64,000 nt of DNA from Flavobacterium jumunjinense (GTDB lineage Bacteria; Bacteroidota; Bacteroidia; Flavobacteriales; Flavobacteriaceae): contig NZ_CP091285.1 in assembly GCF_021650975.2 (NCBI RefSeq), positions 3,844,001-3,908,000 on the forward strand, written 5' to 3'. Position numbers and translations under genes: made by a program. Under the pieces are notes generated by a model. The model was not told the DNA's origin. It was given only the letters and a program-made list of their open reading frames with translations, and made no database searches. This document shows, piece by piece, positions 18,190 to 51,740 of the stretch (the stretch's first letter is position 1; the number at the start of each line of letters is the position of its first letter).

Positions 18190-18270
18190 ACGATAGATGA
18201 TTTATTATTTATATATTTGAAAGACATATAAAATAGGACACTCATCATACATATAAACAAGTTAGCGGTA
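18190..18270 (+). repeat. Cassette junction A0 (right half only), array left border
   Basis: The stretch resembles the right half of the junction at 22768-23065: GATGATTT, a -7-like TATATTTG (18212-18219), then ACATATAAACAAGTTAGCGG. The terminal GTTAGCGGTA (18261-18270) is partly complementary to TAACCGTTAG (18832-18841) beyond the next gene. No left half precedes it, so this appears to be the array's left end. Confidence 0.5.
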
Positions 18271-18320
18271 AGCGTCGATCCGACCAAAAAACAGAATTGA
18301 CAACTATTAAAAATGACATA

Positions 18321-18785
18321 ATGATAAAAACAATTTTAATAACTTTAACACTTGTAACAACTTTTTGTCTTGGTTTCACTTTTAAATCAATAATAACAAA
18401 AAATAACGACAATAAAATGAAAAAAGTAACAGGAATTGGGGGCGTTTTTTTTAAATGCAAAGACCCAAAAGCAACAACAGAATGGTATCAAAAACACCTT
18501 GGTTTAGACACAAACCCTTATGGTGCAACATTTGAATGGTATGAAAGTCCAGACAGCACAAAAAAAGCACAAACACAATGGACACCATTCGCTGAAAACT
18601 CAAAATACTTCGACAAAGACTTTATGATAAATTACCGAGTAGAAAACTTGGAAGCACTTGTTGATGAACTAAAAAAGGAAGGCGTAACCATTGTGGACAA
18701 AATTGAAACTTTTGATTACGGAAAATTTGTTCATATTCTCGACGGAGAAGGAAACAAAGTTCAACTTTGGGAAGCAGTTGACTAA
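18321..18785 (+). CDS. VOC-superfamily (glyoxalase-like) protein with N-terminal membrane segment
   Basis: A 154-residue protein. Residues 1-22 form a hydrophobic signal or anchor; residues about 33-154 are one vicinal-oxygen-chelate domain (GIGGVFFKCKDPKATTEWYQKHLGL ... KFVHILDGEGNKVQLWEAVD). VOC domains act in dioxygenases, isomerases and antibiotic-resistance proteins; a specific activity cannot be assigned. An internal ATG at 18417 would give the bare VOC domain. It is the first cargo gene of the cassette array, with its own junctions on both sides. Confidence 0.8.
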   Translation: MIKTILITLTLVTTFCLGFTFKSIITKNNDNKMKKVTGIGGVFFKCKDPKATTEWYQKHLGLDTNPYGATFEWYESPDSTKKAQTQWTPFAENSKYFDKDFMINYRVENLEALVDELKKEGVTIVDKIETFDYGKFVHILDGEGNKVQLWEAVD

Positions 18786-18829
18786 ACTAGAAAGTAGACA
18801 AAAACTGAAATTTTATAAACGAAAAAATA

Positions 18830-19060
18830 CCTAACCGTTAGTCGAGTAGTCAGTTCAGCTAGAAACTAACAGCGTTTGCTCTTCAAACTGGTTTAATTCA
18901 TTTTCTGGAACATACATGATTATTAGGATACAAGAGTAGTAAAACAAGGGAAATTTATACACACGTTAGTACTAAAAAGCCTTTCCCTGATGGAATATTT
19001 CATACCTGCTAACGAAAAATTATTAATGAACTTAATTTTGTATTTGGAAACAGATACAAA
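18830..19060 (+). repeat. Cassette junction A1
   Basis: Contains the A-family left half (ACAGCGTTTGCTCTTCAAAC, then TTCATTTTCTGGAAC and AGTAGTAAAAC) but a diverged right half. The left core TAACCGTTAG at 18832 pairs partly with the start of the preceding unit. Confidence 0.6.
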
Positions 19061-19077
19061 GACAAAAAAAGAATAAT

Positions 19078-19620
19078 ATGGACAAAGCACTTCAAACAAT
19101 GATTGACAATATGCCCGAAAAAACAGGTAAATCCTTGAGCGAATGGAAAAAGGTGCTTAAAGCAAAATCTTTTTCTAAACATTCAGAAGCTGTAAATTTT
19201 CTAAAAAAAGAACATAATGTAACGCACGGATTTGCGAATACAATTGTGGTATTGTCAAAAGAAGGAAATGAAACACCAACCGACCTTATTCAAAATCAAT
19301 ACGAGGGAAAGGAAAATTTACTTCCGATTTATGAAAACCTTTTATCTGTCGTAAAAGAATTTGGAAAAGATGTTACAATCACGCCAAAAAAAACAAGCGT
19401 AAGTATTATCAGAAAAAAACAATTTGCATTAATAAAACCTGCCACCAAAACCCGAATTGATTTAGGATTAAAATTTAAGGACAAACCGACAACAGACAGA
19501 CTTGAAAATTCAGGACCTTTTGGAACAATGTGTACACACAGAGTTAAGTTATCGAATGTCAACGAAATTGATAGCGAACTAAAAAAATGGCTGAAAGAAT
19601 CCTATCAAAATGCGGAATAA
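19078..19620 (+). CDS. DUF4287 / DUF5655 domain protein
   Basis: A 180-residue soluble protein with an N-terminal DUF4287 domain (MDKALQTMIDNMPEKTGKSL, a helical segment ending in HNVTHGFANTIV) and a C-terminal DUF5655 domain (about 85-178) with FALIKPATKTRIDLGL and the late HRVKLSNVNEID. Such fusions are common in accessory DNA; the biochemical role is unknown. It is a single-gene unit flanked by A-family junctions. Confidence 0.85.
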   Translation: MDKALQTMIDNMPEKTGKSLSEWKKVLKAKSFSKHSEAVNFLKKEHNVTHGFANTIVVLSKEGNETPTDLIQNQYEGKENLLPIYENLLSVVKEFGKDVTITPKKTSVSIIRKKQFALIKPATKTRIDLGLKFKDKPTTDRLENSGPFGTMCTHRVKLSNVNEIDSELKKWLKESYQNAE

Positions 19621-19854
19621 AAACTGTAGGAAATCGAGTAAACAACTCTGTCAGTAGCTGACAGCGTTTGCTCTTCAAACTGGTTCAATTCATTTTCTGA
19701 AACATCCAAGAATTATTAGGGCAAAATAGTAGATTTTATACGCTTGTAATTACTAAAAGCTTTTAACAGATTAAAACATTTTAGATGATTTTGAGTTTTT
19801 TTAATATATTTACAACTAAGAAATTAAAAGGTGCACATACAAGTAAGTTGGAAG
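19621..19854 (+). repeat. Cassette junction A2
   Basis: Full-length A-family repeat. Left part: ATCGAGTAAACAACTCTGTC, the near-palindrome CTGTCAGTAGCTGACAG, then TTTGCTCTTCAAACTGG and GAATTATTAGGGCA. Right part: TTAG (19781), a 20-base spacer, promoter-like TATATTTA (19805-19812), then GGTGCACATACAAGTAAGTT. Its right core GTTGGAAG (19847-19854) pairs with CTGCCAAC (20329-20336) after the next gene. Confidence 0.75.
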
Positions 19855-19893
19855 TAATTTTGAAAAACAGAAACAACAAGATTGAAAAATAAA

Positions 19894-20322
19894 ATGAAAA
19901 TACAAACATCAATCACAATTATATTAATTGTTTTGGTTCAAAATTTATATTCACAAACATTTGACAAACCGACATACGAAAGGTTACTAAAATCAGACAA
20001 AATAGAATTTGTAAAATATGCAAAATCAGTTGGTTTGACAATTGAAACTGATTCAATTTCAGAATCTATTTTTGCGAAAAAAGCAGGTTGTTTATTTATA
20101 AAACCGACTGGAACTAAAAATGATAATCAATATTATCAACTTGATCTAATTGTTTCTACCCAAAATAAAGAGAATAATAAAATCATTCTTGAAAATGCAA
20201 AAGAAAACCCTGAAAAGAAAGGTGTTTGGACTGATAATGAATATTTATACAGAGAATGGGATATGGAAAATCCTATGTCTAAAGAAATGTGGTACAAAAT
20301 ATTGATATATAAAATAAAATAA
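19894..20322 (+). CDS. Small secreted protein, unknown
   Basis: A 142-residue protein with a clear signal peptide (MKIQTSITIILIVLVQNLYSQ). The mature part has a KAGCLFIKP segment and a YQLDLIVSTQNKENNK strand; no domain is recognised. The ATG at 19894 is preferred to the TTG at 19882 since it gives a clean signal. It is a single-gene cassette between A2 and D1. Confidence 0.7.
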   Translation: MKIQTSITIILIVLVQNLYSQTFDKPTYERLLKSDKIEFVKYAKSVGLTIETDSISESIFAKKAGCLFIKPTGTKNDNQYYQLDLIVSTQNKENNKIILENAKENPEKKGVWTDNEYLYREWDMENPMSKEMWYKILIYKIK

Positions 20323-20328
20323 AAATGA

Positions 20329-20438
20329 CTGCCAACAGATGCTTGACAAGACGTTGGCAGAAATTTTTAAAAAATATAAAACGAATAATGTTACTTTACA
20401 AGTTCCAGCCATCTCAAAGTAGCAAAACGTTATACCTC
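20329..20438 (+). repeat. Cassette junction D1 (with short self-paired end)
   Basis: Starts with CTGCCAAC (20329-20336), which is the exact complement of GTTGGCAG at 20353-20360, forming an 8-bp stem. The rest (AGTTCCAGCCATCTCAAAG, AGCAAAACGTTATACC) is shared with D2. Its right core GTTATACCTC (20429-20438) is perfectly complementary to GAGGTATAAC (21232-21241). Confidence 0.7.
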
Positions 20439-20462
20439 ATTTTAAAAAATGGCATAAGAAAA

Positions 20463-21230
20463 ATGAAAATCATCCAATATATAATTTTTGTCTTTTTAAT
20501 ATTCGCGTCTTGTTCGCAAAAAAATAACAATGAAAAAAATGACACTTTTACATTAGACAAAGTTAATGTTGCGATGATTTACGAAAAAAAAGTAAATGAT
20601 ATTCCTTGTTTACTATTTAATGTAACTGATACAATAAAAAAGAATCAGAAAATTGGAATAATATTCAAACTTGACGTAAAATATGATAATCCGAAAAAAG
20701 GAAGCAATTGTTGCGCATTTGAACCTGGTGTTGACGGAACTAAGGAAAAAATAAAAAAAATAAAAATACTCTTTATAAGCAATAATGAAGAAATAGACGT
20801 AACAGAGAAATTATTCAACATTGAAGAAGCATTCATGTTTACTAGTTTCGAAGAATACATTCAAGGCCAATTTAGAAATAATGATTTTAAATGCGTTTGT
20901 TACGAACAAAAAAACGACGAATTAATCGAGAACTTAAAACGAGAACATCTTGGAGGAGAAATAATTAAAAATAAAATAGACAAAAACAAAACTCCAATAA
21001 TAAAAAACATAAACGATTTTGTAAATATATATAATTCATTAACTGGAGATAAATATAATGGGACATTTGACAATAGTGATTTATATTCTGGATGGAGAAT
21101 TACTAATCATTATTACTATTTTTGGTTACCTGAAGAATTTAATATTTCACTAAAAAAATATAATCAATTAGAAATCGAAGTGGAATTATTAAAAGGCAAG
21201 AAATTGAAATTTTTACGAGTACTGAAATAA
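20463..21230 (+). CDS. Lipoprotein, unknown function
   Basis: A 255-residue protein with lipoprotein signal FVFLIFASC (Cys about 17). The mature part contains a Cys-pair segment GSNCCAFEPG and a late YSGWRITNHYYYFWLPEEF region; no domain is recognised. An upstream in-frame ATG at 20325 would extend it through the junction repeat and bury the signal, so 20463 is chosen. The unit's two ends are a perfect 10-base complement (20429-20438 and 21232-21241). Confidence 0.75.
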   Translation: MKIIQYIIFVFLIFASCSQKNNNEKNDTFTLDKVNVAMIYEKKVNDIPCLLFNVTDTIKKNQKIGIIFKLDVKYDNPKKGSNCCAFEPGVDGTKEKIKKIKILFISNNEEIDVTEKLFNIEEAFMFTSFEEYIQGQFRNNDFKCVCYEQKNDELIENLKREHLGGEIIKNKIDKNKTPIIKNINDFVNIYNSLTGDKYNGTFDNSDLYSGWRITNHYYYFWLPEEFNISLKKYNQLEIEVELLKGKKLKFLRVLK

Positions 21231-21231
21231 C

Positions 21232-21360
21232 GAGGTATAACAGCCATTTTGATATAGCTGCAATTTAGTGGAAGTATCGTTTCGCATCAAGTTTTCGTGA
21301 AGCCGAAAATTGAGCGGTTACAAACTTCCAGTCATCTCAAAGCAGCGAAACCTTACCCAC
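21232..21360 (+). repeat. Cassette junction D2
   Basis: Related to D1 in its right part (CTTCCAGTCATCTCAAAGCAGCGAAAC). Left core GAGGTATAAC followed by AGCC. The right core reads CTTACCCACA (C in place of the usual G) and pairs with the TACTGTGG-type sequence after the next gene near 22032. Confidence 0.65.
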
Positions 21361-21363
21361 AAT

Positions 21364-22029
21364 ATGAGAAAAAAGATATCATTAATATTAATCATACTAT
21401 CAATAGGAATTACTAAAGCCGAGAGCTTTATGACCGCTCAATATCCTGACAAAATTATTTATAATGGAACAGAGTACAATTTAAACTCAAATCCATTAGA
21501 ACCATATTTTGATAAAAATCCCAAAAATAGACCAAGCATGGTGTCGACAGCTCTATGGCGTGGATATGTTGGATATTTTGAAATTATTGAAAATGAATTA
21601 TATTTAACTGATATGAAAATACCAATTTATCAAACTGATGAGGATGGAAATTATAAAGAAAAATGGTTTTCAATCTACAGAATGTATTTTTCTAGACAAG
21701 AAAAAGTGAAAGTAGATTGGTTTAGCGGAATTCTGATTTTACCTCACGGAGAAATGGTTAATTATGTTCATCAAGGTTACGCATCTACCTACAGTAAATA
21801 CTGGCTTCTCGAAATTGAAAACGGGACTTTTAATGAGGCTAGAAAATATGAGAATAAAGAATTTGAGAAATTTAAAAAACGTCAATTTGAAGTTTTTGAA
21901 AAAACAGAAGAATATAAAAAACTTTTTACCAAATTAAAAGAAAACGATAAATACAACGACGATGAATTTATAAAATCATTTATTTCTGATTTTGTAATTA
22001 ATTATACGACAAAATTTATGACTGAATAA
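21364..22029 (+). CDS. Secreted protein, unknown function
   Basis: A 221-residue protein with a signal peptide (KKISLILIILSIGITKAES). The body begins FMTAQYPDKIIYNGTEYNLNSNPLEPYF and is rich in aromatic residues, with WFSGILILPHGEMVNYVHQGYASTY in the middle and a charged helical tail. The same arrangement occurs in small uncharacterised proteins often found near cassettes; no function is known. The ATG at 21364 follows the junction directly. Confidence 0.7.
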   Translation: MRKKISLILIILSIGITKAESFMTAQYPDKIIYNGTEYNLNSNPLEPYFDKNPKNRPSMVSTALWRGYVGYFEIIENELYLTDMKIPIYQTDEDGNYKEKWFSIYRMYFSRQEKVKVDWFSGILILPHGEMVNYVHQGYASTYSKYWLLEIENGTFNEARKYENKEFEKFKKRQFEVFEKTEEYKKLFTKLKENDKYNDDEFIKSFISDFVINYTTKFMTE

Positions 22030-22282
22030 AATACTGTGGCAATCGAGTAAACAACTCTGTCTGTAACTGACAGCGTTTGCTCTTCAAATTGGTTCAATTC
22101 ATTTTCTGAAACATCAAAGAATTATTAGGGCATAATAGTACTAAAACAAGAGGATTTTATACGCTTGTAAGTACTAAAAGCTTTTAACAGATTAAAAACA
22201 CTTTAGATGATTTGTAATTTTTTATATATTTACAACTAAGAAATTAAAAGGTGCACAATATAAGCAAGCTGTAATTAATTAG
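22030..22282 (+). repeat. Cassette junction A3
   Basis: Full A-family repeat: GGCAATCGAGTAAACAACTC, the near-palindrome CTGTCTGTAACTGACAG, TTTGCTCTTCAAATTGG, then TTAG (22203), an 18-base spacer, TATATTTA (22225-22232) and GGTGCACAATATAAGCAAG. The right core CTGTAATTA (22269-) pairs with CTAATTACA after the next gene (22768-). Confidence 0.75.
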
Positions 22283-22307
22283 ACTCAACAATACAATAAC
22301 TTAAAAT

Positions 22308-22736
22308 TTGAATTTATCCCAATATATAAAAAAGAGAAACGGTGTACCATTAGGAGCAAGTAATTCACTTCGCAATATGATGATTCGTTCTTTAGGAGCT
22401 GGAAAATTTTCAAATTTTTGGAAATATTGGAATCCTATTTGGAGTTATTATTTAGGGAAATATATTTTTAAGCCTCTTAAAATCATATTCCCTCCTGCTT
22501 TGTCTCTTTTAATCACATTTGCATTCTGTGGTTTTTTACATGATTTAGTAATAATGATAATAAGATGGGGTTTTGCATTTTTATTAACTCCTTGGTTTTT
22601 ATTAATGGGTTTATGTGTGATTATAGGTGATTATGCAAAAATTGACTATTCAAAATTCACGTGGACAATTCGAGCTTTTATAAATATATTAATCATTTCA
22701 AGTTGTTTATTTATAGCGTATCAAGTACAAATCTAA
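22308..22736 (+). CDS. Small membrane protein resembling a C-terminal acyltransferase (MBOAT-like) fragment
   Basis: A 142-residue protein with three or four membrane segments. KFSNFWKYWNPIWSYYLGKY followed by FPPALSLLITFAFCGFLHDLV recalls the FW-x-W and CG-x-x-H region of membrane-bound O-acyltransferases, but the remaining MBOAT helices are missing. The TTG at 22308 is the likely start; the first ATG (22378) would remove the well-formed N-terminal segment. It could be a stand-alone family of small acyltransferase-like proteins rather than a truncation. Confidence 0.65.
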   Translation: MNLSQYIKKRNGVPLGASNSLRNMMIRSLGAGKFSNFWKYWNPIWSYYLGKYIFKPLKIIFPPALSLLITFAFCGFLHDLVIMIIRWGFAFLLTPWFLLMGLCVIIGDYAKIDYSKFTWTIRAFINILIISSCLFIAYQVQI

Positions 22737-22767
22737 ATGTAAACAAGAATTATTGAATTGGATAGAA

Positions 22768-23065
22768 CTAATTACAATCCAATAGACGGCTCTGTCAGTA
22801 ACTGACAGCGTTTGCTTTTCAAATTGGTTCAATTATTTTTCTAGAATATGCAAGAATTATTAGGGCATAATAGTAGTAAAACTAAAAAAAAAATACACAC
22901 GTTAGTACTAAAAGCTTGTAGCAGATTAAAAGTCCTTTAGATAATTTGTAAGCAAAAAATTATATCTTTGAAATAAAATAAAATATGACATTTATGATAC
23001 ATATACAACCATTTTTGTGCGTATATGTATGACAGAGTGATACATATAAACGAGTTAGCAGTCAT
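22768..23065 (+). repeat. Cassette junction A4
   Basis: A-family left half (AATAGACGGCTCTGTC, palindrome CTGTCAGTAACTGACAG, ATTATTAGGGCATAATAGTAG) with a variant right half containing TATCTTTG and two ATACATATA motifs. The right core GTTAGCAGTC (23056-23065) pairs with GGCTGCTAA (23600-23608). Confidence 0.75.
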
Positions 23066-23101
23066 TTTACAACTGAAAAACGATAAAAAAAGTTTAAAAA
23101 A

Positions 23102-23608
23102 ATGAAATTAATAAATTTTTTAAAGAGTACTTTTAATGATTCAAAATTTGTTGAAACAAAATTGCAAAAAGAGTTTATTGAAAAAGATTATGCTGAAAAA
23201 GTTATTTTAAAAAACTCTGCTAAATTAAATTATCAACTGTTGTTGTTGTTTTTGTTTATTGATATTTATTTATTGTATAATATAAAAACATACTCGCATA
23301 AAATATTAATTATAATCTTCTGCTTAGTAACTTTAATTTTACCATTAACCAAAATAATAAATCAAAAACCAAAATTAATAATTTCAAAAGATAATCTAAC
23401 ATTTAAAGATGGAAAACATATAAAATGGTCACAAATTGAATCAACAATAATAGAAGAATTAGACTCGTCCGAAATTAGCAGTTACTATAAATTAAATGTT
23501 AAACTCAAAAACAACGAAACGATAAAAATACGTTTGAGTGATTTAAATTATTCGAAATCCGAAATTAGTCATATTATAGAATATTATAAACAAAATAACG
23601 GCTGCTAA
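23102..23608 (+). CDS. Membrane protein with PH-like C-terminal domain, unknown
   Basis: A 168-residue protein with two membrane segments (about 43-60 and 66-84) and a C-terminal beta-rich region (KLIISKDNLTFKDGKHIKWSQIESTIIEE ... IKIRLSDLNYSKSEISHIIEYY) that resembles bacterial PH-like membrane proteins. Its TAA stop at 23606-23608 lies inside the cassette core site, so gene and recombination site overlap. Confidence 0.7.
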   Translation: MKLINFLKSTFNDSKFVETKLQKEFIEKDYAEKVILKNSAKLNYQLLLLFLFIDIYLLYNIKTYSHKILIIIFCLVTLILPLTKIINQKPKLIISKDNLTFKDGKHIKWSQIESTIIEELDSSEISSYYKLNVKLKNNETIKIRLSDLNYSKSEISHIIEYYKQNNGC

Positions 23609-23843
23609 TCGAATAGACGGCTCTGTCAGTAACTAACAGCGTTTACTCTTCAAACTGGTTTAATTCATTTTCTAGAATATGTAAGAATTATTAAGACACA
23701 ATAGTAGTAAAACTACAGAAATTTATACACACGTAAGTACGAAAAGCTTGCAGCAGGTTAAAAGTCCTTTAGATGATTTGTGATTTTTTAATATATTTAC
23801 AACTAAGAAATTAAAAGGTGCACATATAACCAAGTTGTAAAAC
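23600..23843 (+). repeat. Cassette junction A5
   Basis: Full A-family repeat. Left core GGCTGCTAAT, then AATAGACGGCTCTGTCAGT; right half TTAG (23769), 19-base spacer, TATATTTA (23792-23799), GGTGCACATATAACCAAGTT. The right core GTTGTAAAAC (23834-23843) pairs 9/10 with GTTTTACAA (24416-24424). Confidence 0.8.
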
Positions 23844-23858
23844 ATTATTACTAAATAA

Positions 23859-24413
23859 ATGAAACTTTATATTTTAATATCATTTATATTTTTCTATAAT
23901 TTCACATTTTGTCAGACAGAAAAACTTGATAAAATAATTCATAAAAGAATAGAAAGATTACAAAATAAAAACATTGATACAATAGGTGTTTATAAAATTC
24001 ATGGAGAACATTTAATAACAACAAAATCTGGAGCTACTACTGCATATATATTTTGGATAGAGCAAACCGTGATTAAAATTATTAAAGTAAATGGATGTAA
24101 AATTTCAAGGTCAAAAAAACTTCTTGATAAGGATATATTTGAATTTTATTATTCTAATCAAAACTCCATAGATAAAGAAACATTAGATAATTTTATTACA
24201 GAAGATGGTGGATTTGTTTCTACTAGTCATCATATAAAAAATAATATTACTATTTATGATACTAACAAAACTAAAACTTGGGAGATCAATAACTTTTACT
24301 TGATTAAAAATTCTGGAGATTATATAAACATTAATTATGATAAAAATATTGATTTGAAACTGATTCAATGGAAAAATTTAATTGACAAAAAAATAATTAA
24401 TCTGTTTAAATAA
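23859..24413 (+). CDS. Secreted protein, unknown function
   Basis: A 184-residue protein with a signal peptide (KLYILISFIFFYNFTFCQ). The mature part contains a central beta-rich region with TTAYIFWIEQTVIKIIKVNG and a Lys/Asn-rich tail. No domain is recognised. The ATG lies 16 bases after the A5 core, leaving no room for another gene; transcription probably starts inside the junction. Confidence 0.7.
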   Translation: MKLYILISFIFFYNFTFCQTEKLDKIIHKRIERLQNKNIDTIGVYKIHGEHLITTKSGATTAYIFWIEQTVIKIIKVNGCKISRSKKLLDKDIFEFYYSNQNSIDKETLDNFITEDGGFVSTSHHIKNNITIYDTNKTKTWEINNFYLIKNSGDYININYDKNIDLKLIQWKNLIDKKIINLFK

Positions 24414-24415
24414 AC

Positions 24416-24743
24416 GTTTTACAATCAAATAGACGGCTGTTTCAGTAACTAACAGATTTTGCTCTTCAAATTGGTTCAATTCATTTTCTGGAATATACAA
24501 AAAATTATTAGGACATAATTCTAATAAAACAACTGAAATTTACATACATGTAAGTACGAAAAGTTTAGAACAAATTAAAAGCCCTTTAAACAATCTATAG
24601 TATAATTTTTATTATTTTTGATGAGTACGATAAAACACAACCACGAACACAATGCGTTTTTTTGTATTGTTCAAATTAATTCAAAATCAATATCTTAAAT
24701 ATATTTAAACTTTTGGAGTTAATTATATTAAGGGTTGGCAATA
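24416..24743 (+). repeat. Cassette junction A6
   Basis: A-family left half (AATAGACGGCTGTTTCAGT, TTTTGCTCTTCAAATTGG) joined to a variant right half (ACAATGCG, TTGTATTGTTCAAATTAAT, CTTAAATATATTTAAAC, TTTTGGAGTT) that is shared with A7. The right core GTTGGCAATA (24734-24743) pairs 9/10 with TATTGCCAA (26250-26258). Confidence 0.8.
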
Positions 24744-24759
24744 ATTATGACCAAATAAT

Positions 24760-26247
24760 ATGAAACATCTTAAATTAACCATTTTACTATTAAACGTAAT
24801 TTGCTTCACTGCTTGTAATCAAAGACAGAGCAAAACCGTTAATACAAATAGATTAAGCTCATCGATAAATGAATATCTAACAGCATGTGAGTCAAATGGA
24901 TTCAACGGAGCTGTTTTAGTTACAAAAAGAGACAGTATTATTATTAACAAAGGTTATGGATTTGCCAATAAGGAAAAGTCTTTTGCAAATACTCCTAAAA
25001 CAGTATATGATATCTGTTCTGTAACAAAACAGTTTACAGCAACGGCAATATTGAAGTTAGCAGAAGACAAAAAACTAAAGCTAACTGATTCTTTAATTAT
25101 ATATTTTAAGGATTTGCCTATTGATAAACAAAACATCACCATTCACCATTTACTCACACATTCAGCTGGCTTTGGGCATGGAATAGGCAAAGGTGATTTT
25201 GACCATATCCCTGAAAAAGAATATTTCGAGCAATTGTTTCATACCGACTTGCTGTTCAAACCAGGAGAAAAATATGAGTACTCTAACTCTGGCTACAGTA
25301 TTCTTGGACGAATAATAGAAATCGTATCAGGCAAAAGTTATGAAAGCTATATAAGAGAATTTTTATTTAAACCAGCAGGGATGTATCAAACTGGTTATCT
25401 CCTTCCTGAATGGGATAGTGATTTAGTGGCTAATGAATATTTGTACAATGTGATAAATAAAGAGAACCGCATTTACGAATATCAGAAAGATGGAAAAATC
25501 GCTTGGCCTTTAAAAGCAAATGGAGGTATTCACTCCACCCAAGAAGATATGTACAAATGGTATTTGGCATTAAAAAACAATACAGTATTAAACAAACAAT
25601 CGATAGAAAAATTAACAGCACCTCACATTCTCGAGTATGAAGGCGAATCGAGTTATTATGCTTATGGGTGGGTAACATTTCAGTCAGATAGAAGTACTAA
25701 AGTAATTACCCATAATGGATTTAATGGAGTTTCTTATTATGAGTTTATTTGGTTTCCTGAAGAGGATGCTCTTATTCTATTTTCGACCAATTCGTCAACT
25801 CGCGAATCTTCAAAAATACCGTTTGAATTAGAAAAAATGCTCTTTAATAAGAATTATAAAGCTAAAGCGATCTCAAAAAGTAACGTTAGTGAGTTACTAA
25901 AATTTTCTGAAAATTATTCGGGAGATTTGATTTTTTTGGGAAAAGAATTAAAGCAAGAATTCGAAGAAAAGTTGAATAATCCTGCCTATTTAAACCGTTT
26001 AAGTGGGGTTTATTTAAGAGCGAATAAAATTAATTATGCAATTGTTATTACGGAACTCAATACGGAATTATTTCCTCTTGATGGTAATGTATGGGATACT
26101 ATGGGAGATGTATACCTTGCTGCTAAACAAAATGAAAAGGCAATAAATAGTTATAAAAAAGCATTAGAACTTAAGCCAAAAGATGACGATTGTTTCTGGT
26201 GCGAGAATTCTCTAGAACAGTTAGAGAAATTGAAAACAAAAAAATAA
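24760..26247 (+). CDS. Serine hydrolase (class C beta-lactamase-like) with TPR tail, lipoprotein
   Basis: A 495-residue lipoprotein (signal LLLNVICFTAC). The beta-lactamase/transpeptidase-like domain (about 35-355) has the SxxK nucleophile motif in DICSVTKQFTATAIL, the Y-S-N motif in YEYSNSGYSILG and the HNG triad-like motif in VITHNGFNG. A short TPR segment follows (DTMGDVYLAAKQNEKAINSYKKALEL). Relatives are esterases, peptidases and penicillin-binding-like enzymes; substrate unknown. It is an unusually long cargo gene, but its unit ends still pair 9/10. Confidence 0.88.
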   Translation: MKHLKLTILLLNVICFTACNQRQSKTVNTNRLSSSINEYLTACESNGFNGAVLVTKRDSIIINKGYGFANKEKSFANTPKTVYDICSVTKQFTATAILKLAEDKKLKLTDSLIIYFKDLPIDKQNITIHHLLTHSAGFGHGIGKGDFDHIPEKEYFEQLFHTDLLFKPGEKYEYSNSGYSILGRIIEIVSGKSYESYIREFLFKPAGMYQTGYLLPEWDSDLVANEYLYNVINKENRIYEYQKDGKIAWPLKANGGIHSTQEDMYKWYLALKNNTVLNKQSIEKLTAPHILEYEGESSYYAYGWVTFQSDRSTKVITHNGFNGVSYYEFIWFPEEDALILFSTNSSTRESSKIPFELEKMLFNKNYKAKAISKSNVSELLKFSENYSGDLIFLGKELKQEFEEKLNNPAYLNRLSGVYLRANKINYAIVITELNTELFPLDGNVWDTMGDVYLAAKQNEKAINSYKKALELKPKDDDCFWCENSLEQLEKLKTKK

Positions 26248-26249
26248 AC

Positions 26250-26448
26250 TATTGCCAATCAAGTAGACAGATCTGTCTATAACTAAAGGAGTTTGCTCTT
26301 CAAATTGGTTCAATTCATTTTCTGAAATATCCAAAAATTATTAGGGCATAAACGCAATGCGTTTTTTGTATTGTTCAAATTAAATAATTCAACATCTTAA
26401 ATATATTTAAACTTTAGGAGTTGCGTATATTTATGAGTTATATGCAAG
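26250..26448 (+). repeat. Cassette junction A7
   Basis: Left core TATTGCCAATC, then AAGTAGACAGATCTGTC and TTTGCTCTTCAAATTGG; right half as in A6 (AACGCAATGCG, TTGTATTGTTCAAATTAAA, CTTAAATATATTTAAAC). The right core GTTATATGCAAG (26437-26448) pairs with CTGTATATAAC (27287-27297). Confidence 0.75.
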
Positions 26449-26476
26449 TTGTGAAAAACAAATTTTAACAAAAACA

Positions 26477-27283
26477 TTGAAAAAAACAATATTTACATTA
26501 TTATTTATTTTATCGTTGAATTCGGTTTTCGCATTTAGCATAAACGACACTTTGCAACTAAAAAACAAATTCAACGAACTCACAATTCGATATCAATATG
26601 GAGATGAATCCTATAATATTGAGGAAATGAAATTTGTAAAAAATGGAAACAAAATAATCGCAACAATTTCTATTCCTAACAATGAACAACTTGAACAATC
26701 CGAAACTGAATTGACTAAAATCAATATTTCTTCAATTGATAAATTTCTGACCAAAGCTTTTGAATTTAAAAATGACTGTGTTGAAAAATGGACAAGTTCT
26801 TACGTGAATTACTACACTCTTAATATAGATAAAAAGCAAATCAAGATTTATAAATTTTGCAATTGGGAAGAATCAAATTTTATGGAGCTGAAAAAACAAA
26901 TTTTCGGTAATTATTTAATAAAATTGGATGAAAAGCGAAAACAGCTAAATATTAAAAATAATGAACTTTTAATTGGACTTTGGAAATATGACAATAGTAT
27001 TCATAAGATTGAAAAAGACAAAATCTATACTCTAACTAGATTAGAAAGCAAGTCCAAAGAAAATTGTTTTTTGAAATTTAAAAAAGAGCAAAAACTTGTC
27101 GACTATTATTGTCTTAAGAATTCGAAAACAAAATATGATTTTAAATTTGACATTATCAATGGAGATTTGATTTTATGCATAAACGGAGAAAATAAAAATG
27201 ATACGAAAGACTTTGTATATGGCTATACTTTTAAAGTTTTGGAATTGAATAAAAACTCAATTAAGTTAACAACACTGAATTAA
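26477..27283 (+). CDS. Secreted protein, unknown function
   Basis: A 268-residue protein with a signal peptide (KKTIFTLLFILSLNSVFAF). The start is a TTG at 26477; no ATG in frame upstream could give this signal. The mature region has two halves, the second (from about 155) beginning LLIGLWKYDNSIHKIEKDKIYTL, reminiscent of lipocalin-like single-sheet domains, but no family is recognised. Single-gene cassette between A7 and B1. Confidence 0.68.
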   Translation: MKKTIFTLLFILSLNSVFAFSINDTLQLKNKFNELTIRYQYGDESYNIEEMKFVKNGNKIIATISIPNNEQLEQSETELTKINISSIDKFLTKAFEFKNDCVEKWTSSYVNYYTLNIDKKQIKIYKFCNWEESNFMELKKQIFGNYLIKLDEKRKQLNIKNNELLIGLWKYDNSIHKIEKDKIYTLTRLESKSKENCFLKFKKEQKLVDYYCLKNSKTKYDFKFDIINGDLILCINGENKNDTKDFVYGYTFKVLELNKNSIKLTTLN

Positions 27284-27286
27284 AAC

Positions 27287-27460
27287 CTGTATATAACAGC
27301 TACAGCGCTTTGTAGCAATTGCTAGGTTTGCTTGTGTTTAGAATTTTACTTCTTCTGTTCGCTTCGTTCAAGTCTCCGAAAATTCTATGAGGAGTTTTGT
27401 ACTTGTAAACTTTTGTCCTAAATTTACACAACTGCCACAAGCAGTAACACGTTAGCTGTA
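27287..27460 (+). repeat. Cassette junction B1 with embedded promoter
   Basis: First B-family repeat. Left core CTGTATATAAC, AGCTACAGCG, GCAATTGCTAGG, a hairpin around TTCGCTTCG, then TTTTG (27395-27399), exactly 19 bases, TAAATTTAC (27419-27427), CACAACTGCCACAAGCAG and right core GTTAGCTGTA (27451-27460). The promoter-like pair matches promoters of chromosomal genes in this window. Confidence 0.8.
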
Positions 27461-27474
27461 ACCTAAACCAAGAT

Positions 27475-28077
27475 ATGAAATTCATTTTTACCATTTTTTT
27501 ATTCACTACACTAATTCAGAATGAGAGCGATAGTTTGATTGGAAAATATTCTTACTCACAACAACATTTTTCGGAATCGTTAAAACTGAATTCTAACAAG
27601 ACCTTTAATTATTCTGTCAGAATGGAGTTATTTAAGCAGGAAATAAATGGAAACTATGTAGTTATTGGAGATAGTTTAGTCCTAAATAGTGTACCGCAAA
27701 GGGACAAAATCATAGTTGATGAAAAGTTTAAAAAGTCGAAAAAGAACACATTTAGAGTTACGGATAAGAGTGGTCATCTAATAACTTATCATTTAACCGT
27801 TAATACTGACAAAAAAGAAGTCATTGAATTAAGAGACTGTTTTGATAAAGTGACTATCAATGATAACAAGATTAAAAGTTTCCAAATAACTGACACTAAA
27901 GGTTTAAAATCACCAGAATATACTATCAAAGGGACAAGTAGTAATTATTTTGATATAAGATTTGAACAAATTAGAGTTTTCGAAAGTGAGAAATGGATTA
28001 TTGACAATAAACTAAAGAGAATTAAACCCATTGGAACAAATGGTGAATATCAATCCTATTTTTTGAATAAAAATTAA
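27475..28077 (+). CDS. Secreted protein, unknown function
   Basis: A 200-residue protein with a short signal peptide (KFIFTIFLFTTLIQ). Next comes a lipocalin-like opening (LIGKYSYSQQHFSESLKLNSNKTFNYSVRM), a pattern seen in small exported proteins of Bacteroidota that measure or bind ligands; the function is unknown. It lies 14 bases after the B1 core. Confidence 0.7.
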   Translation: MKFIFTIFLFTTLIQNESDSLIGKYSYSQQHFSESLKLNSNKTFNYSVRMELFKQEINGNYVVIGDSLVLNSVPQRDKIIVDEKFKKSKKNTFRVTDKSGHLITYHLTVNTDKKEVIELRDCFDKVTINDNKIKSFQITDTKGLKSPEYTIKGTSSNYFDIRFEQIRVFESEKWIIDNKLKRIKPIGTNGEYQSYFLNKN

Positions 28078-28082
28078 AAGGC

Positions 28083-28251
28083 AATAACTAACAGCCGTTT
28101 ATTACAACTGCTAGCTAGGCTTGGTTTGTGTTCGGAATTTTACTTTTTCTGTTCGCTTCGCTCGAGTCTCCGAAAATTCCATGAGGAGTTTTGTACTTGT
28201 AATCTTTTGTGTTAAATTTACTTAACTACTATTTGCAGCATAACGTTGTGC
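28083..28251 (+). repeat. Cassette junction B2 with embedded promoter
   Basis: B-family repeat: CTAACAGCCG, CTGCTAGCTAGGCTTGG, inverted repeat GGAATTTT...AAAATTCC, then TTTTG (28189-28193), 19 bases, TAAATTTAC (28213-28221), TTTGCAGCATAACGTTGTGC. The right core is GTTGTGC (28245-28251). Confidence 0.8.
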
Positions 28252-28281
28252 TTAATTATTGAAAAAGAAAGATAAAATTTA

Positions 28282-28743
28282 ATGAACAAGGAATTTACAA
28301 CCAAGGAAAGGAAGAAGGTATTTGATGAAATATTCAAAGAAAAAATAGTCCCATTATTCAATGATTATGGTTTTAGTTTACACACAAAAACTTCGAAAAG
28401 ATTATTTAAAAACTTAGAAAACAAACTCTCTGTTTTCGTTTTTATTGAATATAAAAATCGGTTTAAATATTACGATATTTCTATCGCATACTTTGATGAA
28501 GAAATTGGAAATGTGTATGATGATAATTATTTAGCTTTGGTAAATGGAATGAACCCGAGTTTTAGTGGAGAGAATAAAGAAGAAATCAAATTATCTGTTG
28601 ATGATTGGATTACAGAAATGAAGTCAACAGTGTTTCCTTTTATTGAAAACCATTCTACACATAAATCAATAGTAGAGTCTGATCAATTTTATATATCTAA
28701 GTCACGAGCAAGTAAAATCACAGAACGTTTGAAAGGCCATTAA
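28282..28743 (+). CDS. DUF4304-like protein, unknown
   Basis: A 153-residue soluble protein. The N-terminal segment (KVFDEIFKEKIVPLFNDYGFSLHTKTSKRLFKNLENKLSVF) resembles DUF4304 proteins, which are frequent in toxin/immunity neighbourhoods. Assignment is by pattern only. It is followed by 660 bases without a convincing gene, so this unit may have lost or degraded cargo. Confidence 0.6.
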   Translation: MNKEFTTKERKKVFDEIFKEKIVPLFNDYGFSLHTKTSKRLFKNLENKLSVFVFIEYKNRFKYYDISIAYFDEEIGNVYDDNYLALVNGMNPSFSGENKEEIKLSVDDWITEMKSTVFPFIENHSTHKSIVESDQFYISKSRASKITERLKGH

Positions 28744-30434: not shown

Positions 30435-30460
30435 CATTGAGAACAGAAAAACAAAACAAT

Positions 30461-39123: not shown

Positions 39124-39181
39124 TTAGGTAGCTTTGTATTATTTTGCCATACATATAAAAAAGTTATACATATTAAGAGAA

Positions 39182-39703: not shown

Positions 39704-39710
39704 AAGTACT

Positions 39711-46860: not shown

Positions 46861-46863
46861 TAA

Positions 46864-47484: not shown

Positions 47485-47705
47485 CGTTTATTCATTTGTT
47501 CTTATTGTTTTTTAAGGCATTCATCATCACTTTGCAAGTTGTTGAGCTCAAAGAATGAAAGGATTTGTTTTTTGGCTACTCCCAATTAATTTTAAAAGAT
47601 TGCATTCAAAAAAGTTTCTTGTGTAGCTTAAAACCGTTATTTTTACTTAATAAATTATAATCTAAATTAATACAGACGGAGGTTTTTAGACAAACTGATG
47701 TTATG
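47475..47705 (+). repeat. Cassette junction C4
   Basis: Complete C-family repeat. Left: CTAACAGCTAACGTTTATTC, TTCTTATTGTTTTTTAAGGC, ATTCATCATCACTTTGC; middle GGCTACTCCCAATTAATTT; right: TGTGTAGCTTAAAACCG, TTATTTTTAC, GACGGAGGTTTTTAGAC, then GTTATGTGC, partly paired with GCATAAAAC after the next gene. Confidence 0.75.
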
Positions 47706-47744
47706 TGCTATTCAATGAAACCACTAAATTCAAGAGTAATTAAT

Positions 47745-48326
47745 ATGAAAAAATATTTTGTCTGTTTTCTTTTAATTCAATTATTTGGATGTAAAAATGA
47801 AAATAATTGCGAGCAAGATTTAAAAAAAGCTAATGAAGAAATTATTGCACTAAAAAAACGAATACTTGAAACAAAAACTGTAGACAGCGTATTTTCTGTC
47901 GTTGATACTTTGCCAAAAAATTATTTAATAAATAATTCTGGGCAAAAAAAGAGTTTTAAGCCAAATATGATAGAGCTTAAAAATGCTGAAATTATTTATA
48001 AAGGAGAGAACGATAATCTTGCATGGCTTCATTTGGAAGTTACGAATACATTGTCAAGAGATATAAAAAGTATTATGATAAAAATTCATAGTGTTGACTG
48101 TGATAACTCAGATGACGAATATATTGAAGAGTTTACAGTTATTCGCCAAAACGCTACTAAGACAATAGAAATTCAGATATCTTCACAAATTATACATGAC
48201 AAAATTATGAACTGCTATAAACATCCTCCAGTTATTGAAATCACAGATGCGATATTAATAACAGGCGAAAGATATCCAAATACAAAAGGAAGAAATTATT
48301 ACAAGTATGAAGGGCAATCTAATTGA
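47745..48326 (+). CDS. Lipoprotein with coiled coil, unknown
   Basis: About 193 residues; lipobox LIQLFGC (Cys about 13). A coiled coil (CEQDLKKANEEIIALKKRI) precedes a beta-rich region (EIIYKGENDNLAWLHLEVTNTLSRDI) resembling an extracytoplasmic FxLYD-like domain. The ATG at 47745 gives the signal; the ATG at 47703 lies in the junction. Confidence 0.7.
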   Translation: MKKYFVCFLLIQLFGCKNENNCEQDLKKANEEIIALKKRILETKTVDSVFSVVDTLPKNYLINNSGQKKSFKPNMIELKNAEIIYKGENDNLAWLHLEVTNTLSRDIKSIMIKIHSVDCDNSDDEYIEEFTVIRQNATKTIEIQISSQIIHDKIMNCYKHPPVIEITDAILITGERYPNTKGRNYYKYEGQSN

Positions 48327-48600
48327 CAATTATAAATTTCAAAAAACAATGAACAGCATAAAACGGCTAAGATTTATTCATCAATTTTTATTGTTTTTTA
48401 AGGCATTCATCATCACTCCGAGAATCGTTGGTCTTGAAAAGCCAACAATGAAGAGATTGGGATTTTAGCTACTCCCAATTAATGTTGAAAGATTACATTA
48501 AAAAATGTTTTTTAGTATAGCTAATTCCGTTATTCTTACTTTTAAATTGAATCTAAAATAACACAAACGGAGGTTTTTAGACAAAATCAGGTTGTGTACA
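48327..48600 (+). repeat. Cassette junction C5
   Basis: Complete C-family repeat: GCATAAAACGGCTAAGATT at left, TTTATTGTTTTTTAAGGC, ATTCATCATCACTCCGAG, GCTACTCCCAATTAATG, TTTTTTAGTATAGC, a CTTACTTTTAA region, AAACGGAGGTTTTTAGAC. The right core GTTGTGTACA (48591-48600) pairs 9/10 with TGCACACAAC (49416-49425). Confidence 0.78.
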
Positions 48601-48616
48601 ATTAAAAAAACAATGA

Positions 48617-49414
48617 ATGAATAATATTTATAATGAGTTTTTCACTACACTTAAAGAATATTTAGTAACATTAGAAATTGACAAAAAACATAAAGGAATT
48701 GAAGGTTGTTCTTCTCAAGAAATCGAATCAATTGAAAAAAGAAAAGGCAATTTACCAATTGCTTATAAGGAATATTTGAAAAGTATTGGAAAAAAGTTCT
48801 TATTTGAATTTATGGATGCTGAGGATATGGCATTTGACGACCTAGATTATATTGAACAATTTGGGGGAAAAGTTTTTAAAACTAACCAATTTAAAATGGA
48901 AAGGCCATATATGGTTATTTCAGAAAGACGAAACGAATATATTACATTAATTTACCTTGACAAAGGAAACAATCCTAAAACTTGGATAATGAGTAAATAT
49001 TGGGATGAGGAGGAAAAAGGTAAAAATCTAGAAATAAGAACCGATTCATTTACAGATTTAATACTTGTTTTTTTTCAACAGTCACTAATTAATTTCCCAT
49101 TCACTTTTAACTGGGTTACCGAAGAAGACCAGAAGGACAAGGATGTTGTGGAAAAAAGATATATAAATTGGTTTAGAAATTTACAATCTATTGAAGAAAA
49201 AATAAAATCAAATAGTTCAAAAAACACACTTGTAAAGCAGTTAAACGATAAGTTTCTAGATTACTATCTTCCAAGTAAATCAACAATAATTGAAGAGTTA
49301 AATAAGTCTAATTTTGGAACAACAATAAATAATGTTAAAAAAACAGATAATATAGCCCCGCAAAATTCAAATAAAAATAAAATTATTAAATGGATAAAAA
49401 AGTTATTCAATTAA
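48617..49414 (+). CDS. SMI1/KNR4 (SUKH) family protein, probable immunity protein
   Basis: A 265-residue protein whose first 140 residues match the SUKH/SMI1-KNR4 fold: SSQEIESIEKRKGNLPIAYKEYLKSIGKKF, then an EDMAFDDLDYIEQFGG loop and MVISERRNEYITLIYL. SUKH proteins commonly neutralise nuclease toxins delivered by contact-dependent or type VI/VII/IX systems. Here it is an orphan in the cassette array, without a toxin beside it. Unit ends pair 9/10. Confidence 0.85.
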   Translation: MNNIYNEFFTTLKEYLVTLEIDKKHKGIEGCSSQEIESIEKRKGNLPIAYKEYLKSIGKKFLFEFMDAEDMAFDDLDYIEQFGGKVFKTNQFKMERPYMVISERRNEYITLIYLDKGNNPKTWIMSKYWDEEEKGKNLEIRTDSFTDLILVFFQQSLINFPFTFNWVTEEDQKDKDVVEKRYINWFRNLQSIEEKIKSNSSKNTLVKQLNDKFLDYYLPSKSTIIEELNKSNFGTTINNVKKTDNIAPQNSNKNKIIKWIKKLFN

Positions 49415-49415
49415 T

Positions 49416-49635
49416 TGCACACAACAGCTAAGGATTCGTTGCGTTCTTAGCACGACAAAGAAATTAATTTTAAACCCTTAAACAAACTCAGGACAAGCTC
49501 ACCTTTTACATTCCATTACTATAGCGATTTCGAAAAGTTTTTTAGTGTAGCTTAAAACCGCTATTTTTACTTCAATTTCTAATACAAATTAAAATAAACG
49601 GAGATTTTTAGACAAACTGATGTTACACGCAAGCT
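49416..49635 (+). repeat. Cassette junction C6
   Basis: Left TGCACACAACAGCTAAGG (diverged body: CTTAGCACGACAAAG, GACAAGCTCACC); right AAGTTTTTTAGTGTAGC, TTAAAACCGC, TATTTTTAC, CTTCAATTTCTAATACAAAT, AACGGAGATTTTTAGAC, right core GTTACACGC. Confidence 0.75.
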
Positions 49636-50349: not shown

Positions 50350-50355
50350 AAGCCA

Positions 50356-50387
50356 GTTGCTAACAGCTAAGGTTTATTCATTTCTTC
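50356..50387 (+). repeat. Cassette junction C7, left half (split by IS3 element)
   Basis: GCTAACAGCTAAGGTTTATTC is the C-family left half. It ends in TTC (50385-50387), which is repeated at 51699-51701 beyond the IS. Joining both flanks restores the C-family text seen at 47480-47515. Confidence 0.75.
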
Positions 50388-50427
50388 TGTCCCGTCCTGA
50401 AATAAGTTGACATAAAATCGACTTATT

Positions 50428-50820
50428 ATGAATAAATCAGAAAACAGGCCAGCAAAGCGTAGTCAACGCGATTATAATCTGGGCTTTAAATTAGCTGTTA
50501 TTTCTCAAGTAGAAAAAGGCGAACTTACCTATAAGCAAGCTCAAAAGAAGTATGGAATTCAAGGTAGAAGTACAGTTTTGGTTTGGTTAAGAAAATTTGG
50601 TAATTTAGATTGGAGTAACCCCAAGCTTTTGTTTATGGTCAAATCTAAAGAAACTCCAGCCCAAAGCATTAAAAGATTAGAGAAAGAATTAGCTGATGAG
50701 AAGCTTAAAAACACAGTGCTAAACACCATGATTGATATCTCAGATAGTCAATACGGTACTCAAATTAGAAAAAAGTTTTCACCCAAACCATCCGACGCAT
50801 CCAACAAGAAGAAGGCATAA
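50428..50820 (+). CDS. IS3-family OrfA (HTH protein)
   Basis: A 130-residue protein with an HTH (YNLGFKLAVISQVEKGELTYKQAQKKYGI) and a leucine-zipper-like coiled coil (SIKRLEKELADEKLKNTVL). It binds the IS ends. The slippery heptamer A AAA AAG at 50769-50775 lies in frame near its end; a -1 shift there enters the orfB frame, which is open from 50775. Confidence 0.92.
   Translation: MNKSENRPAKRSQRDYNLGFKLAVISQVEKGELTYKQAQKKYGIQGRSTVLVWLRKFGNLDWSNPKLLFMVKSKETPAQSIKRLEKELADEKLKNTVLNTMIDISDSQYGTQIRKKFSPKPSDASNKKKA
50769..50775 (+). promoter_or_regulatory. Programmed -1 frameshift site (A AAA AAG)
   Basis: In the orfA reading phase the heptamer reads A AAA AAG, the canonical slippery sequence of IS3-family elements. 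After a -1 slip the frame runs open (GTT TTC ACC ...) through the OrfB ATG at 50823. Confidence 0.8.
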
Positions 50821-50822
50821 GT

Positions 50823-51659
50823 ATGTCCAGAACTTGTAGATTGTTTGGGGTAAGCCGACAAGCTATTTATCAGCAGGAAGCACGTTGTTTAGAACGAGAG
50901 AAAGAATTATTAATAGTAAAGCAACTCGTTGAAAAACAAAGAAGAATTATGCCTCGATTAGGCACAAGAAAACTTTATTTTTTACTAGAACAATCTTTTG
51001 TTGAAAATAGAATTAAAATCGGGAGAGATGCATTTTTTGCTTATTTGAAAAGAGAAAAAATGCTAGTTAAACCAATGAAAAATTACACAAAAACCACCTT
51101 TTCTAAACACTGGTTACGTAAGTACCCCAATTTATTTAAAGATATCGATATCAACAGAATAGAACAGGTTTTTGTTAGTGACATAACTTATATAAAATCT
51201 AATAAAAGAACTCATTATCTATCATTAGTTACAGATGTTTTTAGCAGAAAAATAGTTGGTTATCATTTGAGTGATGACATGAGTGCAGAAAGTGTGGTTA
51301 AGGCCTTAAGAATGGCAGTAAAAAACAGAAAAACAAACCTTCAATTAATACATCACTCAGACAGAGGTTTACAATATTGTTCTAAAATTTATCAAAATGA
51401 ATTAACCAAAAATAATATTATTGCTTCTATGACCGATGGCTATGATTGTTATCAAAATGCTCTAGCGGAAAGAATAAATGGTATTCTAAAACAAGAATTC
51501 CTCATATACAAATGTAAATCAGGTGATGAACTTAACCTTTTAGTTAGAGAGTCTGTGGAATGCTATAATAGTAAAAGACCTCATTTGAGTTTAAATATGA
51601 AAACACCTAACTTTGTATATGAAAAAACCAGTGAAGTTAACTTCACTGGTTTTAATTAA
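50823..51659 (+). CDS. IS3-family OrfB (DDE transposase)
   Basis: A 278-residue integrase-type catalytic protein: FVSDITYIKSNKRTHYLSLVTDVF (first Asp), LIHHSDRGLQYCS (second Asp) and NALAERINGILKQEF (Glu). The functional transposase is expected as an OrfAB fusion made by -1 frameshifting at 50769-50775; the orfB frame is open back to 50775. It is intact. Confidence 0.93.
   Translation: MSRTCRLFGVSRQAIYQQEARCLEREKELLIVKQLVEKQRRIMPRLGTRKLYFLLEQSFVENRIKIGRDAFFAYLKREKMLVKPMKNYTKTTFSKHWLRKYPNLFKDIDINRIEQVFVSDITYIKSNKRTHYLSLVTDVFSRKIVGYHLSDDMSAESVVKALRMAVKNRKTNLQLIHHSDRGLQYCSKIYQNELTKNNIIASMTDGYDCYQNALAERINGILKQEFLIYKCKSGDELNLLVRESVECYNSKRPHLSLNMKTPNFVYEKTSEVNFTGFN
51624..51653. terminator. 30-bp perfect palindrome at the end of orfB
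   Basis: AAAACCAGTGAAGTT joined directly to its complement (two 15-base arms). It lies in the last codons of orfB and is followed by T-rich sequence, so it can act as a two-way terminator that shields the IS from outside transcription. Confidence 0.75.
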
Positions 51660-51698
51660 TTTATTGTAAAACTCGTCAACTTATTTTAGGACGACTCA

Positions 51699-51740
51699 TT
51701 CTTATTGTTTTTTTATTTGGTTTTAACACTAACTTCATAT
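51699..51740 (+). repeat. Cassette junction C7, right remainder
   Basis: TTC (51699-51701) plus TTATTGTTTTTTTATTTGG continues the interrupted C-family left half. The usual right half is absent; this is the array's right border. Confidence 0.6.

Follow-up and report, generated by a model that had tools for sequence, protein, structure and literature searches.

A decayed integron-type gene-cassette array in Flavobacterium jumunjinense, likely served by a tyrosine recombinase family lacking the IntI-specific domain

The genome of Flavobacterium jumunjinense (4.68 Mb, two contigs) harbours a gene-cassette array in the 64,000-nucleotide stretch analysed here, hereafter the window (contig NZ_CP091285.1, G000:C1:3844001-3908000). 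The array occupies window positions 18198-50386, and its 37 open reading frames (ORFs) used in this analysis all lie on the + strand. Two minus-strand ORFs of 82 and 96 aa were also listed, both overlapping larger + strand ORFs. The same-strand arrangement described in an earlier note, which had put forward either an integron-type array or a different system of single-strand recombination, is borne out. Twenty-one of the 37 array proteins have no Pfam match at E 0.001. Those with a match include glyoxalase-like, DUF5655/DUF4287, PF00144 hydrolase, cation-efflux, DUF2461 and esterase proteins, as well as TPM, DUF1801, AraC-type, SMI1/KNR4 and SUFU proteins. Apart from tRNA, no Rfam family was found in the window at curated cut-offs.

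The cassette units run from a GTT core to an inverse core, and the 13 nucleotides at their two ends pair to a variable degree (given below as paired positions out of 13). The first unit, 18261..18842, carries a glyoxalase-like gene according to Pfam (8/13). It is followed, likewise on the + strand, by units at 19847..20336 (11/13), 20429..21241 (12/13, with the strict signature described below), 21352..22044 (8/13), 22268..22778 (an MBOAT-like fragment, 10/13), 23054..23609 (10/13), 23834..24425 (11/13), 24734..26259 (a PF00144 hydrolase with TPR, 11/13), 26437..27297 (11/13), 27451..28092 (9/13) and 28245..28771 (9/13). Further units are located at 30426..30889 (glyoxalase-like, 9/13), 32038..32781 (DUF2461, 11/13), 39163..39719 (TPM domain, 10/13), 47700..48364 (10/13) and 48591..49425 (SMI1/KNR4, 12/13). 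The unit at 35221..35737 is common to another species, and its right end was taken from the match at locus L276; the pairing test gave only 8/13 there, at a different place from this right end.

The spacers between these units are of at least three types, type A with recombinase tails, type B attC-like and type C unexplained, and a single model for all window spacers was thereby ruled out. Within type A spacers (18817-26440) lies the 3' end of a tyrosine-recombinase gene, seen in six spacers as seven tblastn fragments confined to roughly the last 34 codons (E 1.6e-12 to 0.05), all on the + strand, at 18920..18991 (E 1.7e-4), 19704..19778 (E 0.05), 22113..22214 (E 1.2e-7), 22848..22948 (two pieces, E 1.5e-5 each), 23685..23780 (E 1.6e-12) and 24499..24597 (E 1.6e-10). 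The two-piece tail stands directly before a full attI-like site at 22949..23056 (+), detected with our model of such sites, R2, at E 3.4e-9. The same model detected a second site within the array at 39062..39165 (+, E 7.5e-9) and an internally deleted remnant at the left array end, 18198..18263 (+, E 3.9e-4), which ends in the GTT core of the first unit. Weaker R2 matches (E 0.07 to 0.66) were located at the ends of type A spacers, and one off the array at 57069 (E 0.63). By their letters, type A spacers thus look like a recombinase tail plus an attI-like end. The statement of the earlier note that the window holds no integrase is correct for an intact gene; seven 3' tails of one and three attI-like remnants are present. 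With these remnants and tails, the window looks like several merged arrays that have lost their recombinase genes.

Type B spacers were found with R1, our model of the attC-like site, at eight places on the + strand. The best match in the window is 21239..21354 (E 1.2e-7), and the others are 20334..20431 (E 0.017), 27301..27453 (E 2e-6), 29244..29364 (E 2.1e-6), 31937..32040 (E 1e-4), 32777..32927 (E 2.2e-5), 34630..34730 (E 0.026) and 35122..35223 (E 2.1e-4). At least two of these sites lie within 4 kb of each other, the spacing by which clusters of attC sites lacking integron-integrases (CALIN) are recognised in the accessible text of PMC9668308, here counted with R1 in place of the canonical attC model. 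Over the whole source genome, R1 gave at least 20 sites at E up to 0.01 (150 of 9,006 candidates scored), and attC-like sites are scattered on G000:C1 at about 0.08, 0.22, 0.62, 2.62, 2.70, 2.77, 2.95, 3.40, 3.50 and 3.58 Mb. In the region with type C spacers, 37637-50386, the genes keep the same strand and two units still have paired ends; the spacers there are explained by neither R1 nor R2. An insertion sequence at 50387..51698 (+), with an rve-type transposase (Pfam) and an identical copy at G000:C1:1971838-1973149, appears to interrupt the last type C spacer.

The source genome possesses two longer copies of the recombinase gene, at 84 kb and 2.947 Mb. Each copy is immediately followed by an attI-like stretch, then a GTT core, and a single cassette with 12 of 13 end positions paired. 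Both copies are interrupted, which makes the window array probably a relic. A hairpin finder of our own detected 241 forward sites in relatives, with 29 reverse and 11 in shuffled sequence; the few sites it found in the window and in the source genome are in line with decay.

All eight pairs of unit ends reported in the earlier note are present where it had placed them, one start being better set at 23054 than at 23056. An unanchored scan of the array for GTT...AAY pairs with at most two mismatches in 13 gave 13 pairs, compared with a mean of 6.4 in 20 shuffles (standard deviation 2.6, maximum 13), and the same scan gave 3 pairs in each window flank, with about 3 in the controls. By itself, the unanchored pairing signal of the window is only weakly above chance and is weak evidence. 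Free local alignment of unit starts and ends, equalled in 139 of 20,000 permutations, was too noisy in this AT-rich DNA and was replaced by anchored and signature tests. When 24 units were anchored at the repeat ends, with anchors placed by eye and some of them in knowledge of the pairing, starts paired with their own ends at 9.42 of 13 positions, compared with 8.13 for the ends of other units (0 of 20,000 permutations). The start of the next unit did not pair better (8.30/13). For the 15 starts set solely by R1 and R2, the values were 9.27 and 7.93 (0 of 100,000). The pairing put forward in the earlier note thus stands far above permutations when anchored, and hardly above shuffles in the unanchored scan. 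The pairing of unit ends is confirmed: the anchored test is strong, and the loci of relatives settle the matter.

Of 101 sampled genomes of the same genus, source genome included, 34 contain a recombinase homologue that aligns over most of its length at 58% identity or more. Twenty loci from 19 relatives, of 3-18 kb each, were examined, and ten of them end at a contig end behind the recombinase. In clean loci, a 347-aa recombinase is followed by an attI-like site that ends in GTT about 105 nt past the stop codon, and then by same-strand cassettes. A core was recognised by pattern in 19 of 22 loci, namely the 20 loci of relatives and the two of the source genome. The first cassettes of those loci paired with their own downstream region at 11.66, compared with 9.68 for the regions of others (0/20,000). 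The ten contig ends lie no more than a few kb behind the recombinase (L083, L084, L086-L088, L090-L092, L095, L097), as if the arrays break assemblies.

In the 312 kb formed by these 22 loci and the array, 46 occurrences of a strict 13-nt signature were counted, in which GTT-N7-A-NN at the unit start is complementary to NN-C-N7-AAC at the unit end, except for an A.C mismatch at position 11. A total of 116 pairs share the inner 10 bases, and the A.C signature is by far their commonest ending. Shuffles gave 48.7 such inner-10 pairs per set, and the signature ending was absent from the six commonest endings printed. A wider set comprised the best 80 loci of 575 relatives in a scan of genome contigs, with the names Flavobacterium, Kaistella, Chryseobacterium, Paenimyroides, Frigoriflavimonas, Lutibacter, Pedobacter and Daejeonella, and further Cyclobacteriaceae, Chitinophagaceae, Saprospiraceae and Haliscomenobacteraceae; two labels of metagenome-assembled genomes (Rhizobium and Bifidobacterium) look mis-binned. 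Across these 80 loci, the strict signature was counted 139 times in the 389 kb lying downstream of the recombinase, whereas the 685 kb upstream of it contain a single occurrence.

The unanchored window scan, hardly above shuffles, would agree with the absence of any recombination system, with intergenic repeats such as transcription terminators that pair by chance and were spread by homologous recombination. The exact signature, its one-sidedness around the recombinase, the covariation in both hairpin types, and the shared single cassettes, whose ends fall sharply at the cores and whose flanks are unrelated (see below), speak against such repeats, which we regard as an extremely improbable explanation.

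An attI-like core was found by pattern in 62 of 76 loci and by eye in 13 of the other 14, so that by sequence an attI-like site lies next to the recombinase gene in 75 of 76 loci, mostly 102-108 nt past the stop. In 50 aligned sites, the attI-like hairpin covaries. Pairing reaches 93.6% in its five-pair helix, every pair of which has changed on both sides, and amounts to 69.6% in the neighbouring helix and 59.1% in the outer one.

The inter-cassette sites between chained signature units (n=59) are typically about 118 nt long, 57 of them measuring 109-124 nt. Across 41 aligned sites, the 21-pair arm is paired at 82.2%, compared with 31-40% when the arms are slid, and 19 of the 21 pairs have changed on both sides. 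At one internal column pair, where one side is A in every row and the other is C in at least 90% of rows, no standard pair is formed in any of the 41 sites. Read from the sequence, an A stands at position 11 from the core in both the R arm and the L arm, in an antisymmetric layout. Modelling gave the bottom strand the higher stability in 56 of 59 circles, in 46 of the in-array forms and in 44 of 59 interiors alone (p 4.5e-5), and these models suggest single-strand use of the sites. The start of the next unit does not complete the R stem, with which it pairs at 4.58 of 10 positions compared with 4.09 for any unit; the value of the own unit, 9.0, is high by selection. Clusters of sites foldable as R''-L''-L'-R' are thus indicated by R1 and by the pair counts. 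In the 43 loci searched of the 80, R1 gave 233 matches. According to their listed coordinates, none lies upstream of the recombinase, and the three minus-strand rows overlap plus-strand rows. Another 30 loci of the family, drawn in part from other classes of the phylum, were also searched; for 29 of them an R1 result was obtained and 18 matched, of which 17 have their sites downstream of the recombinase and on its strand.

The recombinase belongs by fold to the tyrosine recombinases, with Pfam PF00589 plus a SAM-like domain. Four proteins of the family scored 204-214 bits on the IntI model TIGR02249, below its cut-off of 265, and 218-225 bits on XerA_Arch, whose cut-off is 220. Where IntI4 (2a3v) has 60 residues the recombinase has 18, and about 41 residues of the IntI-specific insert are missing. 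Box spacing is 54 in the 18 measurable of 38 family rows, compared with 95 in 24 of 27 IntI rows, so the IntI-specific additional domain is lacking. In a tree of 57 rows, whose outgroups are only two Xer rows and one other, the 38 family rows (96/94) stand apart from 16 IntIs (100/100), and the recombinase falls outside the IntI clade. The nearest folds in Foldseek are XerA and then IntI4; the AlphaFold model has a predicted local distance difference test score (pLDDT) of 78.5 and a predicted template modelling score (pTM) of 0.48, and with so low a pTM the ranks only hint. The recombinase also possesses an extra N-terminal segment of about 60 residues. Public protein names in the family are tyrosine-type recombinase, integrase or XerD, and in a few cases 'site-specific tyrosine recombinase/integron integrase', a label that the XerA_Arch model carries as its description too. 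The family is at least 7,994 proteins strong, counted as those of 8,000 scored candidates with E 1e-60 or better, and homologues at E 1e-80 are present in 73 of 345 sampled genomes of the phylum, 13 genomes of the same genus among them.

Canonical IntI, lost or located elsewhere, might have moved the cassettes of an ordinary integron or CALIN, with the neighbouring recombinase as a bystander. The arrangement of the sites (R''-L''...L'-R', GTT core, AAC inverse core) matches attC as given in the accessible part of PMC2727003, and integrons are not rare in the phylum, since IntI scores over the cut-off in 93 of the 345 genomes. However, the 95 of these 345 genomes with an IntI match include none from the genus, family or order of the window, the arrays begin at a fixed distance behind the family recombinase and solely on its 3' side, the 3' end of its gene is built into the window spacers, and R1 had no match in 30 canonical IntI loci of similar length (about 3.7 kb each). 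Canonical IntI was rejected as the driver because of its absence from the sample of the order and the lack of R1 matches in IntI loci, and we consider this origin very unlikely.

A Xer-like double-strand system would use duplex core sites (AAC-spacer-GTT) on both sides of the hairpin, which would then be a by-product of inverted sites. The recombinase is Xer-like by profile (XerA_Arch at the cut-off) and by fold, each hairpin side resembles an inverted-repeat core site when the sequence is read, and exchange at both AAC and GTT (see below) fits two usable duplex sites. Nevertheless, arm sequences vary between sites while pairing is kept, which points to recognition of structure, and stability is biased to the bottom strand. 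Double-strand use of this kind is therefore judged unlikely. The family shares its catalytic domain with XerA and XerC/D, but serves cassette arrays with hairpin sites and has the extra N-terminal segment; likewise, hairpin covariation speaks against Xer/pdif modules, in which units lie between dif-like duplex sites served by XerC/XerD.

The cassettes are shared between species with breakpoints at the cores. Among 202 cassettes from the 80 loci, 12 alignments span a cassette body in another locus, and four were displayed. A 709-nt cassette is 99.0% identical between L123 and L169, with flank identity of 0.39 and 0.31 beyond the GTT cores, and a second one is 96% identical between L099 and L101 (flanks 0.32 and 0.31). 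In the window, unit 18261-18842 has an 85% identical counterpart in another species (L272) and unit 20429-21241 a 77% identical one in L273, with both breakpoints at cores, and unit 35221-35737 has 83% identity to L276 with the left breakpoint at the core. These cross-species comparisons, in the four displayed pairs and the window units, indicate gain or loss of single cassettes at GTT and place the unit breakpoints at the cores, where the earlier note had expected them.

Behind the inverse core of the three shared window units, the sequence differs between species. For nine chosen units, 18 matches were listed and ten reach the unit end within 2 nt. The hairpin interior is common in two of these ten (0.86 and 0.69) and not in the other eight (0.53-0.65, compared with 0.56-0.59 shuffled), although the units are 77-95% identical. 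In turn, stretches of attC length match by themselves at 85-98% in many species, and many of them end at AAC and GTT. Gene units kept while interiors differ, together with attC stretches that match alone, may be read as exchange at the inverse core too; alternatively, interiors may have been replaced by other means, or some may diverge fast.

Taken together, the window is most probably (about 0.84) a decayed integron-type array, whose units were likely inserted and exchanged by a Bacteroidota-wide family of tyrosine recombinases other than IntI. Several observations weigh against this. Type C spacers are unexplained, and R1 gives only eight window sites at E < 0.03. Of the 48 loci whose core was found by pattern and is followed by more than 700 nt, only 23 show the strict form in their first cassette; in many of the others the paired ends of this cassette are bulged or contain additional mismatches. 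Selecting for A.C itself accounts for part of the preference of whole circles for the bottom strand, L367 has an R1 match upstream of its recombinase, and weaker members among the 73 phylum-wide homologues may serve other roles.

The attC-like hairpins, the unit-specific pairing and the GTT breakpoints agree with the proposal of the earlier note; membership in the IntI integrons does not hold. Since the standard test does not identify the recombinase as an IntI, a system of the same type but distinct from IntI integrons is the more apt description, and without the IntI extra domain it is likely a separate gene-capture system. The naming of R' and R'' in the earlier note was swapped relative to the usage in the accessible part of PMC2727003.

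For the window system, we infer catalysis, strand use and a second crossover as follows. The enzyme would recognise the folded bottom strand through its structure, namely the R and L arms, both mismatched 11 bases from the core (A.C when read on the top strand, G.T on the bottom). It would cut within GTT, like IntI. A circular cassette would re-form its own R stem and then insert behind attI, and a second exchange at the AAC side (R''-L'') would separate gene units from hairpins. Whether this amounts to a Bacteroidota integron lineage whose recombinase lacks the IntI domain and whose gene units (GTT...AAC, each with a private 13-bp stem) and hairpins can be exchanged independently by crossovers at L'-R' and R''-L'', we regard as an even chance. 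If true, a gene unit could be refitted with the hairpin preferred by the local recombinase, which would offer a mechanism for genes becoming cassettes and for the uniformity of attC within a genome.

Judged by its sequence, the array functions in the manner of an integron, but the tested definition places it outside the IntI integrons. Similar to chromosomal and class 1 integrons, the system combines a recombinase gene, an attI-like site and same-strand, single-gene cassettes that are putatively promoter-poor. The sites resemble attC, as presented in the accessible part of PMC2727003, in their R''-L''/L'-R' boxes, GTT core, structure kept over sequence and better-folding bottom strand. However, the recombinase lacks the IntI-specific insert and forms a separate clade, the 13-bp arms have a fixed mismatch where IntI attC has 7-nt boxes with extrahelical bases, and the attI-like site has a covarying hairpin. 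Gene unit and hairpin interior appear to be exchanged separately, whereas recombination by IntI is reported only at L'-R' in that part of PMC2727003. The array also lies 3' of the recombinase gene and in the same orientation, while intI usually reads away from its array.

Like a CALIN, the window array has no intact integrase; unlike a CALIN, which is defined by canonical attC, it retains attI remnants and recombinase tails. Its type A spacers recall the delta-attI cassettes of mobile integrons, which end in an attI-derived site and not in attC according to the accessible part of PMC12901181, but here the site also carries the recombinase 3' tail and recurs as a repeat family. IntegronFinder identifies integrases by the IntI-specific domain (PMC9668308, accessible part), and standard integron searches would be expected to miss the system. 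The accessible part of the IntegronFinder 2.0 report names one complete integron in Bacteroidetes proper, that of Salinibacter ruber M1 (PMC9024848). No description of such a system in Flavobacterium was found among the open-licence PMC papers searched, subscription papers and preprints being outside this scope. With at least 7,994 family proteins and homologues in 73 of 345 phylum genomes, a large pool of mobile genes may go uncounted. The system would show that folding-based cassette recombination is possible without the IntI insert. It also allows two open questions to be tested on sequences, namely the mark of the recombined strand and the acquisition of attC by genes.

Other features were observed in and around the array. 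The cation-efflux gene at 29410-30279 stands behind an attC-like site and has 75-86% identical copies in hundreds of genomes of the same genus, as if a core gene had been captured by the array. About 3 kb from one family copy, at G000:C1:2950661-2951155 (L005), lies another recombinase, ending in SPLDTL, whose placement with canonical IntIs in the tree is weak (92/65, on a long branch). An adjacent pair of tyrosine recombinases (frames of 290 and 287 aa, with equal scores) occurs three times in the source genome, at G000:C1 508384, 518316 and 1061776. Just left of the array, at 16944-17282, a 41-nt unit is present in 8.3 tandem copies, and a motif similar to this repeat precedes the recombinase copy at 2.947 Mb (L019, about 11820-11880). 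Outside the array, at 57011-57387, the window encodes two tRNA-His genes, 302 bases apart and with equal model scores.

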